Part shown: in pieces, positions 5,118-9,742 of the stretch | Layout of the letters: every line of letters starts with the position of its first letter | Numbering within the stretch: the stretch's first letter is position 1 | Source of the DNA: Candidatus Blautia faecipullorum | Lineage (GTDB): Bacteria; Bacillota; Clostridia; Lachnospirales; Lachnospiraceae | Reading direction: 5' to 3' | Assembly: GCA_019115125.1 (NCBI GenBank) | Contig: DXEG01000024.1 | Location: 1-64,000, forward strand | DNA length: 64,000 nt | Notes under the pieces: generated by a model | Databases searched by the model: none | What the model was told of the DNA's origin: nothing | Seen by the model: the letters and a program-made list of their open reading frames with translations, nothing else | Position numbers and translations under genes: made by a program

Positions 5118-5168
5118 CGAAACGTGATGGCGGAAAAAGCATCGGAAAACACTCATTGGAGGAATGCT

Positions 5169-5765
5169 ATGAAAGCAAAAATGAATCTACAGCTCTTTGA
5201 GGACGGTACGGGAGCTGGCTCTGCAGGACAGGGTGGAAATGCCGGAACTGGCAACGGCGGCCAGAATAATGCCGGAGGAACAGGAAACCAGACAACATTT
5301 AGTTTTGAACAGGCAGAAGAAATCGCCAATGCCAGAGCACATAGGGCAGAGCAGGCAGCGCTGAAGTCTTACTTTCAGCAGCAGGGAATGACTCAGGAGC
5401 AGGTGCAGCAGGCGCTAAATGATTACCGACAGAGACAAAAAGAAAGCCAGCCAGATACTGCAAAGCTCCAGAAGGAGCGTGACAATGCCTTGGAAAGAAT
5501 TGCTCAGATGGAAAACGAGAAAATCCTTACGGGCAAAGGCGTAAAAACTGAAGATCTGGATTATGTGATGTTCAAGGTTTCTAAAATGGTAGATGAGAAA
5601 ACAGATTTCACAAAAGCAGCAGAGAAATTTCTGAAAGACAATCCGCGTTTTACTGGCCAGTCATACCGGGTGATGAGTACGGGGACGCAATCCGGAGGCG
5701 CGGAAGGAACAGGAAATCCAAATGATTTTATTAATGCGGCAATTCGCAGGGCCGCAGGGAGGTAG
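5169..5765 (+). CDS. Phage capsid scaffolding protein
   Basis: Internal scaffold for head assembly, 198 residues. It is rich in Gly/Asn near the start (GTGNGGQNNAGG), then a long charged coiled-coil stretch (about residues 45-130, with AEEIANARAHRAEQAALKS and KLQKERDNALERIAQMENEK), as in the DUF4355-type scaffolds that precede the capsid gene in Firmicute siphophages. The start is ATG 5169 behind TTGGAGG; a longer frame back to 5124 lacks a good ribosome site. The N-terminus MKAKMNLQLFEDG matches the Prp recognition motif (LQLF then a small or acidic residue), so the first 9 residues are probably removed. Confidence 0.82.
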   Translation: MKAKMNLQLFEDGTGAGSAGQGGNAGTGNGGQNNAGGTGNQTTFSFEQAEEIANARAHRAEQAALKSYFQQQGMTQEQVQQALNDYRQRQKESQPDTAKLQKERDNALERIAQMENEKILTGKGVKTEDLDYVMFKVSKMVDEKTDFTKAAEKFLKDNPRFTGQSYRVMSTGTQSGGAEGTGNPNDFINAAIRRAAGR

Positions 5766-5767
5766 GA

Positions 5768-6748
5768 ATGAGCAGGAACAGAATGAATTTACGGCTCTTT
5801 GAGTCAGACGCAAATATTATAGACAGGACCGGGGCGGACACCCTGATACCAGAAGAAAAAGCCAGGGAGATTATTCAGGGGGTAATAACTCAGTCTGCAG
5901 TGCTTTCCCAAGGACGTAAACTTCCAAACATGTCCAGTAAAACATACCGTATGCCGGTACTGGATATGCTGCCTATCGCTTATTTTGTGAACGGTGATAC
6001 CGGTCAGAAGAAGACAACGAAGATGGCATGGGATAAAAAGATTATCACAGCAGAGGAAATTGCAGTAATCGTACCTATTCCGGAAGCAGTTCTTGATGAT
6101 TCTGACTATGATATCTGGGGCGAAGTACGTCCAAGAGTGACAGAGGCTTTTGGAAAGGTAATTGATGGTGCAATCCTGTTTGATGTAAACAAACCGGATT
6201 CCTGGAGAGATGGAATCGTGACTACTTCAACAGACGCAGGAAGTGTTATTACATTGGGAGCATCTGACAACCTGTATGACAAGATCATGGGTGAAGGCGG
6301 TGTAATCGCCAAAGTAGAAGAATCTGGATTCTTTGTGACCGGTCATATGGCGGATATTTCCATGAGGGCAAAACTGAGGGGGTTAAAAGATACTACCGGC
6401 AACCCAATTTTTAAATCAGATATGCAGGGCGGAACAACCTATTCGCTGGATGGTTCTCCCATGAATTTCCCGAACAACGGAGCTTTTGACAAATCGAAAG
6501 CGCTTATGATTTCTGGAGATTTTTCGCAGCTTGTGTATTCTATCCGTCAGGATATCACCTTCAAGTTGTTTACAGAAGGGATTGTGCAGAATACAGACGG
6601 TTCTATCGCATATAACCTAATGCAGCAGGATATGGTGGCGCTTCGTGCTGTTATGCGTCTGGGATGGGAGATTCCTAATCCGATTAATTCCGTACAACCG
6701 GATAAAGAAACAAGATGCCCCTTTGCAATCATGAGAGCGGGGGAATAA
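5768..6748 (+). CDS. Major capsid protein (HK97-fold)
   Basis: Main shell subunit, 326 residues in the zero frame. Segments typical of HK97-like coats are visible: an N-terminal arm, ADTLIPEEKAREIIQGV, the E-loop region with MPVLDMLPIAYFVNGDTGQKK, KIITAEEIAVIVPIPEAVLDD on the spine helix, and the A-domain end with QQDMVALRAVMRLGWEIPNP. The N-terminus MSRNRMNLRLFESDAN carries the Prp-type motif. The gene ends GCG GGG GAA TAA, and a -1 slip on the G-run would extend the product by 27 residues to 6822 (stop 6823-6825), giving 352 residues. Confidence 0.92.
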   Translation: MSRNRMNLRLFESDANIIDRTGADTLIPEEKAREIIQGVITQSAVLSQGRKLPNMSSKTYRMPVLDMLPIAYFVNGDTGQKKTTKMAWDKKIITAEEIAVIVPIPEAVLDDSDYDIWGEVRPRVTEAFGKVIDGAILFDVNKPDSWRDGIVTTSTDAGSVITLGASDNLYDKIMGEGGVIAKVEESGFFVTGHMADISMRAKLRGLKDTTGNPIFKSDMQGGTTYSLDGSPMNFPNNGAFDKSKALMISGDFSQLVYSIRQDITFKLFTEGIVQNTDGSIAYNLMQQDMVALRAVMRLGWEIPNPINSVQPDKETRCPFAIMRAGE

Positions 6749-6783
6749 TTCCCGCTGAGGATTTGGCCTTGATCGGCAGCGGG
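6738..6783 (+). promoter_or_regulatory. Candidate -1 frameshift signal at the capsid gene end
   Basis: Slip site C GGGGG AA (6738-6745) spans the last two sense codons before TAA. After a 5-base spacer comes stem CCCGCT (6751-6756), a 9-base one-sided bulge, inner stem GCC/GGC (6766-6768, 6775-6777) with a 6-base loop, and closing stem AGCGGG (6778-6783). The P-site GGG can re-pair perfectly after a -1 slip. The same layout occurs after the major tail gene at 9309-9354 with different base pairs. Confidence 0.7.
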
Positions 6784-6829
6784 AAAATTGGAAAGGCGAA
6801 AATAGGAAGAAAGAACAGGAGGTAGGAAT

Positions 6830-7234
6830 ATGGCATATGAAGCACATACATGGAAAGATGGAGAAGTGATTTCTGCTGAAAGAATGAATGCCCTGGAACA
6901 AGGGGTCAAAAATGAACAGGTAGGTCCTGCAGGCCCACAAGGAGAAACTGGTCCGCAAGGACCAAAGGGAGATCAGGGAGAAACTGGGCCACAGGGGCCA
7001 AAGGGTGACACTGGCGCAACAGGACCAAAGGGTGACAAGGGAGACCCGGGAGAAACTGGACCACAGGGGCCTAAAGGTGACAGTTATACACTTCCTGAAG
7101 CGAGCGCGGAAACACTAGGAGGTGTAAAACAGGCGGCATTTGTAGCAGATGCTACTGGTGAGAGTATTACAAAAGAAGAGTTTAATGCTCTTCTGAGTTC
7201 TTTGAAAAACGCAGGAATTATGGCAAATGCATAA
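6830..7234 (+). CDS. Collagen-like head fibre protein
   Basis: 134 residues. Residues about 1-25 form an anchor ([24 protein letters not shown]), residues about 35-83 are about 16 Gly-X-Y collagen triplets ([14 protein letters not shown] type), and the C-terminal domain ([24 protein letters not shown], then [16 protein letters not shown]) resembles the phage head fibre family (phi29 gp8.5-type, Phage_fiber_2). Collagen triplets should make it trimeric. Its place directly after the capsid gene fits a decoration projecting from the head. The ribosome site is AGGAGG. The fibre family call is by resemblance. Confidence 0.78.
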
Positions 7235-8800: not shown

Positions 8801-9319
8801 ATGAATTTACGGTTATTTGAAACACTACAGTCCGGTATTGTGGGAAGATGGCAGCATCCCGGATATCTGGATGTGACTGGCGGCGCCGAGCAGGCCCAGT
8901 ATGAACTTCTGGGATTTGGCGTAACGCAGTTGGATGATTCTCCTTCTGCACAGACTACCAGCAAACGATATGTAAACCAGAAGAGTGCAACGCAGACCAT
9001 TGGATCCTATGAGTGGACGGCACCGCTGGAGTTTGACTTGATTCGCTCGGAAAAGGCGATTGAATATATTGCTTCTATTGGAGAAAATGAGAAGACTGGT
9101 GCAGAAGCGGAAACCTATTATTGCGTTGTATACCTGGAAAAACCTATTGATGGGCAGGCAAAGAAGTACAAAGCAAAGAGAAGAAAGGTTGCCATTGAGA
9201 TAGCGGAATTTGCAGATAATGACGGCGAGATCCAAGGTTCCGGAAACCTTCTTGCGGTATCTGACTGGGAATGGGGTCAGTTTGACACAGAAGCCAAGAC
9301 TTTTACGTCGGGGGAATGA
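8801..9319 (+). CDS. Major tail (tube) protein
   Basis: 172-residue tail tube subunit: beta-rich with KRYVNQKSATQTIGSYEWTA and late VAIEIAEFADNDGEIQGSG, a segment shared by major tail proteins of this phage group. It starts MNLRLFETLQSG, so the Prp-type motif sits at the extreme N-terminus. AGGAGGT-like cGGAGGTaa precedes the ATG. The gene ends TCG GGG GAA TGA; a -1 slip on the G-run would add 32 residues (to 9408, stop 9409-9411) for a 203-residue form. Tail proteins with C-terminal extensions made by frameshifting are known in some siphophages, Listeria PSA among them. Confidence 0.88.
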   Translation: MNLRLFETLQSGIVGRWQHPGYLDVTGGAEQAQYELLGFGVTQLDDSPSAQTTSKRYVNQKSATQTIGSYEWTAPLEFDLIRSEKAIEYIASIGENEKTGAEAETYYCVVYLEKPIDGQAKKYKAKRRKVAIEIAEFADNDGEIQGSGNLLAVSDWEWGQFDTEAKTFTSGE

Positions 9320-9354
9320 TAGCCCCCGCGAATAATGCCTTGGTTGGCAGGGGC
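9309..9354 (+). promoter_or_regulatory. Candidate -1 frameshift signal at the major tail gene end
   Basis: Slip site C GGGGG AA (9309-9316) before TGA, a 5-base spacer, stem GCCCC (9322-9326), a 9-base one-sided bulge, inner stem TGCC/GGCA (9336-9339, 9346-9349) with a 6-base loop, and closing stem GGGGC (9350-9354). Bulge and loop lengths equal those of the capsid-gene element, while the outer stem pairs differ in a compensatory way. Confidence 0.7.
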
Positions 9355-9400
9355 GTAATTGGAAAGGCAGAGATCGGACAGGGAAAGGAGTTCATGCAGA

Positions 9401-9742
9401 ATGGTAATTAATGGTGTGGAATTAGAGTTCAATCTCTATGATGCAGAAGCTGAGCAGATGAAGAAGCGATACTTTAAAGAGCTGGAAAAGATGAAAAACA
9501 TCTCAGAAGAACAGAGTAAGTTTGAGGATGAGGCAGAGGGGATCAAATTTTTATGTGGCCGTATTAAGAGCCTGTTTGATAATGTGTTTGGTGAAGGGAC
9601 GGGCGCTAAAGTGTGTACAGAAAAAGATGACCTGCTGATCTGCATGGATGCATATGAAAAACTGATCGGTGAACAGATGTCCCAGCAGAATCGGTACAAT
9701 GCCGTACTTCGCCGTATGCGCCGGCGCAAAATTCGGAAATGA
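9401..9742 (+). CDS. Tail assembly chaperone, upstream member (gpG-like)
   Basis: 113-residue helical, highly charged protein encoded between the major tail and tape measure genes, the position of the lambda gpG-type chaperone. It begins VINGVELEFNLYDAEAEQMKKRY, typical of these proteins in clostridial phages (DUF6673-like by memory), and ends in a very basic tail (RRMRRRKIRK). The start is ATG 9401 behind AAAGGAG; an open extension to 9359 has no ribosome site. Its stop overlaps the next start as ATGA, so here the pair is coupled by overlap and not by a gpG-T frameshift. Confidence 0.7.
   Translation: MVINGVELEFNLYDAEAEQMKKRYFKELEKMKNISEEQSKFEDEAEGIKFLCGRIKSLFDNVFGEGTGAKVCTEKDDLLICMDAYEKLIGEQMSQQNRYNAVLRRMRRRKIRK

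Follow-up and report, generated by a model that had tools for sequence, protein, structure and literature searches.

A putative -1 frameshift cassette predicted to add a common C-terminal peptide, probably a docking site for head fibres, to the capsid and tail proteins of a Blautia prophage

Frameshifted extensions of virion proteins are known from several phages. According to the available parts of two reports, Lactobacillus phage A2 and Listeria phages PSA, A118 and A500 carry such extensions on head and tail, and SPP1 carries a frameshifted C-terminal extension on its tail (PMC5009743, PMC8718954). In mycobacteriophages Bxb1, Wildcat and LeBron, one C-terminal extension is common to the capsid and tail subunits; the role of such extensions is unknown for several phages, as is stated for mycobacteriophages in the accessible sections of that work (PMC3029335). 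In phi29, the C-terminus of gp8 completes a beta-barrel in the base of the trimeric gp8.5 head fibre, according to the accessible text (PMC6542822), and a capsid C-terminus that completes a fibre base offers a precedent for the docking of a tag.

Here, we analysed a stretch of 64,000 nucleotides from Candidatus Blautia faecipullorum (the window; all features on the + strand), which opens with a Firmicutes prophage (~1-23.6 kb) and continues beyond ~23.6 kb with chromosomal-looking genes. The gene for the HK97-type major capsid protein (5768-6748; PF05065, 106 bits; phrog_10, E 1.9e-53) ends in GCG GGG GAA TAA (6737-6748), with the slippery run GGGGGAA at 6739-6745 and the stop codon TAA at 6746-6748. 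The major tail protein gene (8801-9319; phrog_3099, E 1.1e-50; the gene order gives it its name, phrog_3099 being without function in PHROGs) ends in TCG GGG GAA TGA (9308-9319), with the run at 9310-9316 and the stop TGA at 9317-9319. Thus, the preliminary description was right in placing the same G-run at both gene ends. In both genes the run stands right before the 0-frame stop and the -1 frame continues, staying open to 6822 (capsid) and 9408 (tail), 27 and 32 codons past the slip. It would encode a 27-residue capsid tag (6742-6822; stop TAG at 6823-6825) and the tail tag GMIAPANNALVGRGVIGKAEIGQGKEFMQNGN (9313-9408; stop TAA at 9409-9411), the latter kept in three relatives (L003, L004 and L006). 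These features support the -1 frameshift element proposed earlier, which would give both main virion proteins one C-terminal tag. The scaffold (5124-5765), capsid and tail proteins also begin with similar peptides (MNLQLFED, MNLRLFES and MNLRLFET, respectively), and comparable starts occur elsewhere (MKMNIQFFA in L003, MMLQLFA in L099 and KFDLQLFAA in L235); this N-terminal motif is thus common to three different assembly proteins.

The tag consists of three [VIL]G-x-x-x repeats. A peptide pattern, drawn up once peptides from the window and from capsid and tail relatives were known, gave 7 matches in 1.9 million six-frame residues from the window and 88 loci (87 collected by gene homology and one being the window itself). 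All 7 lay where a capsid or tail gene ends, each behind a G-run in the -1 frame: the two in the window (one repeated as L087), the tails of L003, L004 and L006, which are 74-75% relatives, and the capsid of L057. In the window genome, a covariance model matched strongly only at the two elements (E 4e-18 and 1e-15; next 0.15). Among the tail relatives, the tag was kept in three of seven (L003, L004 and L006), the peptide had drifted in L001, and L002, L005 and L088 gave no tag match; among the capsid relatives, a capsid tag was found in 1 of 80 (L057), with drifted peptides in two more (L007 and L010). A lack of conservation in homologous phages, which the preliminary description had named as refuting, thus partly holds among the nearest relatives, but the peptide is conserved across unrelated phages. 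In L001/L007, the capsid and tail genes retain the slip run and a hairpin, but the -1 peptides, having drifted, are rich in Lys, Arg and Glu.

Further copies were collected with a degenerate DNA tag pattern; 22 of the 32 stretches retrieved from viral contigs were tags, as were 5 of the 45 from genomes, where most others were proC-like or other enzymes. Including the homology finds, this gave 37 copies, 25 of them non-redundant. The covariance model matched in 15 of 397 family genomes; by eye, five of these carry the element (G000, G092, G428, G098 and G330) and the other ten look like chance, the two behind L171/L172 being the least clear. A tblastn search of phage records with a 25-residue tag peptide gave no match; this search was insensitive, since the collection holds the tagged R. 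gnavus phages described below. Two copies lie 2.2-2.4 kb apart in seven loci (L092, L093, L095, L098, L099, L106 and L116) and 2.6 kb apart in the window. The carriers tested belong to phrog_10, 544, 840, 422 and 267 on the head side and to phrog_88, 238 and 3099 on the tail side; the carrier in L104, which is among six contigs of 136-166 kb, is a virion protein of phrog_2729. An Ig-fold domain has about 80 residues; at ~25-33 residues in most copies and ~41 in L105, the tag is too short for an Ig-like extension, and many tags are rich in lysine and arginine. In five other capsid genes, the -1 frame continues into other domains in place of the tag, which by eye look Ig-like (L055 and L058) or HeH/LEM-like (L051, L060 and L234).

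The two 82-nt elements of the window are 65% identical, and the capsid copy is closest, at 83% identity, to a copy on the capsid gene of L149, although the L149 and window capsids show no BLAST similarity (best E 0.21). A recent plain duplication within the phage, which had been considered as a source of the similarity, was rejected, since the nearest relatives of the window copies are in other phages. Because the window capsid copy is nearest to that on a non-similar capsid, the slip site, putative stimulator and peptide seem to travel as a ~80-base cassette among capsid and tail genes that are unrelated to each other.

Downstream of the tags, a gene start of the form M-A-Y-x-x-x-x-W-x-x-G/D-D-x-I-T-x-E-K-L-N-x-L-E-x-G recurs; in the window it belongs to the collagen-like gene at 6830. 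This head-fibre gene (6830-7234) comprises a 35-residue N-domain (6830-6934; matched by the N-domain HMM), which co-occurrence and alignment make the proposed partner of the tag, collagen repeats (PF01391) and a phi29-type C-terminus (PF11133, 47.8 bits with a cut-off of 24.6, profile positions 226-277 of 277). The last two codons of the capsid tag form AGGAGG (6817-6822), a Shine-Dalgarno-like sequence for the fibre gene. The N part of the window fibre gave no Pfam match, the N-domain profile matched no solved structure below E 0.9, and, at the sequence level, a gp8.5-like double beta-barrel N-base was not found. Single-chain AlphaFold2 prediction of tag plus N-domain gave no contact and a disordered tag, at low confidence (pLDDT ~45, pTM 0.28).

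The fibre gene was found behind all 21 distinct tagged head-type carriers with downstream DNA read (the window, L003, L004, L006, L057, L090, L092, L094, L095, L099, L102, L104, L107, L108, L113, L119, L123, L149, L151 through L232, L156 and L168). Four of these carriers (L003, L004, L006 and L168) were retrieved with the covariance model or the profile, in addition to the 25 copies. Behind the tail copies with a listed next gene (the window, L003, L008, L092, L096, L099, L132, L169 and L170), that gene differs and occupies the tail-chaperone place. When the N-domain HMM was applied to the 84 homology-found contigs, four had both tag and fibre, two had the tag without the fibre, none had the fibre without the tag and 78 had neither (Fisher P = 8e-6); one of the two contigs with the tag alone (L074) is probably a chance match on the other strand. 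In the reverse direction, the tag was present at 17 of 44 loci found by a scan for the N-domain alone, compared to 2 of 80 fibre-less controls (P = 2e-7, a value that is too small since several of the 44 loci share a contig or kinship), and the remaining 27 loci had no tag match in view. This fibre-first comparison omits L211, L223 and L225, which lie on the contigs of L003, L004 and L006, and 11 stretches that the tag scan had already yielded. The seeds of the tag profile included L003 and L008 but none of L183-L229. Tags that score below the profile cut-off were recognised by eye in L200, L212 and L222 and, as upstream copies, in L188 and L210. Among the fibre-first loci, the tag is in frame, as far as the loci reach, in L195, L200, L207, L213, L227 and L228, reached by a -1 shift in L188, L193, L198, L199, L212, L218 and L222, and reached by a +1 shift at CCC_TAA in L205 and L210; the carrier of the in-frame tag in L207 matches tail-fibre families. 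In addition, the capsid of the L096/L231 phage is without the tag of its relative L149, yet this phage has kept the fibre gene and a tail tag.

Tag and N-domain thus co-occur, with exceptions on both sides. The tail tags of L169 and L170 have no N-domain at E <= 0.01 in their whole genomes (G098 and G330), L008 has a tail tag without a fibre in a 39 kb record that is possibly incomplete, and Leuconostoc phage 1-A4 has the N-domain with no tag on the five gene ends checked. The L001/L007 record has no fibre N-domain. Several adjacent N-domain genes with differing downstream parts lie on single contigs of L191, L194, L202, L206 and L214, and at L112:6228-6524 the capsid-side tag and fibre start are apparently broken by frameshifts in the record.

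The same arrangement was found in isolated phages. Five of six R. gnavus phages were read, and GGGGGAA with the tag stands at all ten of their capsid and tail gene ends; for phiRM10 or phiRgPS_6 (host R. gnavus ATCC 29149), one predicted junction peptide runs from the capsid end ...ITYTPG into GIIPSDDVALVGR. All five have the fibre gene, the N-domain of phiRgIBDN1 being more distant. In its accessible parts, the paper on these phages describes the head-fibre proteins as not conserved among them and does not contain the word frameshift (PMC10072058). In actinophages Quink, Sidious, Mao1 and Trax, a gene with a related N-domain lies directly behind the major tail gene, and the -1 frame between the two encodes peptides such as VPGSNTFPGTALFPGG. 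The Quink capsid also has such a peptide, and the second capsid protein of Mao1 and gp37 of Jabberwocky end in one in frame. Three [VFYL]P repeats, six residues apart, occur at 7 of the 12 actinophage gene ends looked at, where the peptides were chosen by position; the Firmicutes tags have [VIL]G repeats five residues apart, a spacing that is partly built in, as the pattern or profile that retrieved those tags has it too. Not every actinophage slip site is convincing (for example, that of the Quink capsid).

Because unrelated phages carry the tag alongside a single kind of fibre gene, it is probably a socket for fibres. We therefore favour, as the probable reading of these sequences, a portable C-terminal docking peptide for head fibres that is metered by frameshifting; of the binding partners guessed at in the preliminary description, the data point to the decoration, that is, the fibre. 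Co-inheritance of an adjacent tag and fibre gene could reflect linkage, and we regard it as rather unlikely, though worth serious consideration, that the tag, though a genuine frameshift extension, has the host surface or gut polymers as its target, a role proposed for Ig-like and FN3 extensions, and accompanies the fibre gene only by lying next to it. The Ig-like or HeH/LEM-like -1 extensions seen by eye at the same place in L055, L058, L051 and L060, the tail tags without a fibre (L008, L169 and L170) and the many lysine- and arginine-rich tags would all agree with surface binding. A mere neighbour effect, however, fits poorly with tail tags that lie ~2.3 kb from the fibre gene, with the in-frame tag that L207 carries, ahead of a fibre, on a protein resembling a tail fibre or baseplate, and with the actinophage fibre genes that adjoin tagged tail genes.

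To return to the docking peptide, its -1 frame bears the marks of translated sequence. The preliminary description had counted 10 differences, 6 of them at third positions of the -1 frame, over a 42-base stretch of the two window copies, and this count is exact; the excess is weak when taken alone (one-sided binomial P = 0.077), and the window's two copies by themselves hold 3 synonymous and 4 non-synonymous changes, too few to decide. Across the six copies found by homology, three of which are close relatives of each other, single-base codon changes were synonymous in 56 and non-synonymous in 34 cases in the -1 frame, compared to 23/100 and 13/95 in the other two frames. Furthermore, these copies contain no stops in the -1 frame compared to 12 and 9 in the others, and the third-position excess is 126 compared to 72 and 69. 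The test was limited to these six copies, and a version with all 25 was set aside, because 19 copies came from patterns that fix amino acids. These results support selection on the tag peptide in the -1 frame and agree with the earlier claim that it is translated.

The slip runs point in the same direction. Among the 25 non-redundant copies, GGGGGAA precedes the tag in 18, GGGGGGAG in two, a seven-G run in two, and GGGGGGT, GGTGGGG and an A-run in one each; a G-run is thus present in 24 of 25 and an A-run in one. The interrupted run GGTGGGG of the L099 capsid recurs, with tag and fibre, in the capsid of MT835606 (L242), and the slip site is poor in these two copies. An A-run precedes the same kind of peptide in L151 and in the L003 capsid; L003 has its tail tag behind GGGGGAA and its capsid tag behind the A-run. 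The overlap of the two frames before the stop is 10 nt in L113 and L151, 13 nt in the L092 tail and L099 capsid, and 16 nt in L104, L108 and L119, and overlaps this short place the shift at the G- or A-run in those copies. The frame overlap, the codon changes and most of the stem-covariation measures given below collectively support -1 frameshifting to a selected peptide; the occurrence and frequency of the shift are inferred.

A stem (S1) lies downstream of each run. In the capsid gene (6751-6783), CCCGCT (6751-6756) pairs with AGCGGG (6778-6783) around a 9-nt bulge, an optional inner GCC/GGC and a 6-nt loop, as had been described. In the tail gene (9322-9354), the outer pairs GCCCC (9322-9326) and GGGGC (9350-9354) are also as described, but 10 nt are unpaired on the 5' side and one A on the 3' side, so that the bulge lengths are not identical, contrary to the earlier claim, and the tail hairpin is only roughly alike. 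The folding z was -1.90 for the capsid (6747-6830) and +0.20 for the tail (9318-9400), and -2.09 (6735-6790) and -1.90 (9306-9360) when the slip run was included; the tail fold at 9306-9360 pairs the G-run with the C-run. The copies align nearly gap-free, and 84.7% of S1 cells pair in 24 distinct copies. Changes on both sides of a pair were found in 19 cells compared to 5.5 in shuffles (0 of 500 as high), and the next best value when the stem was slid was 10. Three of five covariation measures exceed all 500 shuffles; the counts of both-side-changed pairs (3 compared to 2.7) and of pair types (11 compared to 10.2) do not rise above shuffles. One column pair of S1, 22-49, does not form in 10 of the 24 copies. 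Thus, the outer stem of S1 is held by paired changes, and the earlier view that base pairing and not sequence is kept is borne out. S1 has the conserved pairing of a downstream stimulator, and stimulation itself is putative. When codons were shuffled synonymously in 27 copies (the 25 non-redundant ones plus L001 and L007), structure was only modestly in excess: 25 of the 27 fell below the mean, and z averaged -1.15.

A second pairing (S2), GCCTT with AAGGC (6766-6770 with 6793-6797 in the capsid gene; 9337-9341 with 9364-9368 in the tail gene), would perhaps form an H-type pseudoknot. Of its cells, 88% pair; there is no compensatory pair change, and pairing is broken in the six copies without GCCTT. 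Codon choice follows these letters: the lysine at the site is AAG in 20 of 25 copies, compared to 19 of the 66 remaining lysines of the tags and 201 of the 436 lysines of the carriers, and the alanine is GCC in 19 of 19, compared to 128 of 527 in the carriers. In L001/L007, GCCTT and AAGGC persist together with a hairpin despite the drifted peptide, and this, like the S1 covariation, would be explained by an RNA element after highly expressed genes, such as a stabilising hairpin or a protein-binding site, with the -1 peptide as a by-product. That reading is very improbable, as the same peptide occurs in frame in other phages and also behind the A-run of L151 without a strong stem (z = +1.08); an element acting as RNA only was rejected on the codon pattern of the -1 frame and its freedom from stops. 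Slightly less probable still is that termination-reinitiation at the end of the gene yields the tag as a small protein of its own. In favour of this, the GAATGA overlap of the window tail provides an ATG at 9316 in the -1 frame, and a start lies within a base or two of the stop in 5 of the other 24 copies (ATG in L094, the L099 tail, L123 and L156; GTG in L151). Against it, 14 of 25 copies have no -1 frame start codon before the motif, on which ground an internal small ORF was rejected, and in-frame fused tags exist.

The docking-peptide reading would work as follows. Where the capsid and major tail genes end, a fraction of ribosomes would make a one-base backward slip on GGGGGAA. A stem or perhaps a pseudoknot, itself part of the sequence that encodes the tag, would assist the slip, which would add a C-terminal extension of 27-32 residues to capsid and tail subunits. 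The cassette with its conserved -1 peptide, its S1 pairing and its co-occurrence with a fibre gene can be read from the sequences directly; on this basis, the tag would be the socket and the 35-residue N-domain the likely plug, so that some subunits on head and tail would bear a socket for a collagen-like fibre, presumably trimeric given its collagen repeats. Frameshifting would limit the number of socket-bearing subunits, and the three repeats of the tag may match the three chains of the fibre. More tentatively, and with somewhat less confidence than doubt, we suggest a general plug-and-socket code common to Firmicutes and Actinobacteria phages, in which the C-terminal socket of a head, tail or baseplate protein would consist of three repeats, either hydrophobic-glycine or hydrophobic-proline-glycine, and each repeat would engage a different chain of a trimeric fibre by way of an ITAEKLN-type N-domain. 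Sockets could be encoded in frame, in -1 or in +1, so that any lattice protein could acquire metered fibre sites and unrelated phages could exchange fibres. Now that a short tag has a named candidate for its partner gene, it lends itself to a two-component binding test. The model would account for the placing of a limited number of fibres on unrelated lattices, and it offers a sequence rule for locating fibres, and the points to which they attach, in phages from gut and soil.

Neither the tag nor its pairing with the fibre was described among the literature matches listed (titles, abstract openings and parts of PMC2884959 and PMC13252515, mostly outside subscription journals). Frameshifted capsid and tail extensions and head fibres were already known, and what is new here is a three-repeat tag and its association with a fibre gene whose 35-residue N-domain is conserved. 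As is predicted for the window, lambda G/GT uses a -1 shift in the tail operon, and its slip site contains GGG. However, its product is an assembly chaperone and not a lattice protein, and neither product is present in mature virions, according to the accessible parts of PMC5009743. As in A2, the Listeria phages and SPP1, main lattice proteins would be extended by frameshifting near the gene end; in the available text on those phages, the extensions are Ig-like, FN3 or not further described and no fibre partner is named, whereas the window tag is a short three-repeat peptide with an internal putative stimulator, is found in unrelated phages and is tied to a fibre gene. The extensions of LeBron and Wildcat are ~70 residues long and Ig-like, again with no fibre partner named in the accessible sections (PMC3029335). 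The window fibre resembles phi29 gp8.5 in that both belong to the same C-terminal family (PF11133). In phi29, a C-terminal Ig domain meets a 110-residue base, according to the accessible text (PMC6542822); in the window, the counterpart would be a 35-residue N-domain without a found relation to that base, and the tag is portable, lies in most cases behind a frameshift and occurs on tails as well.
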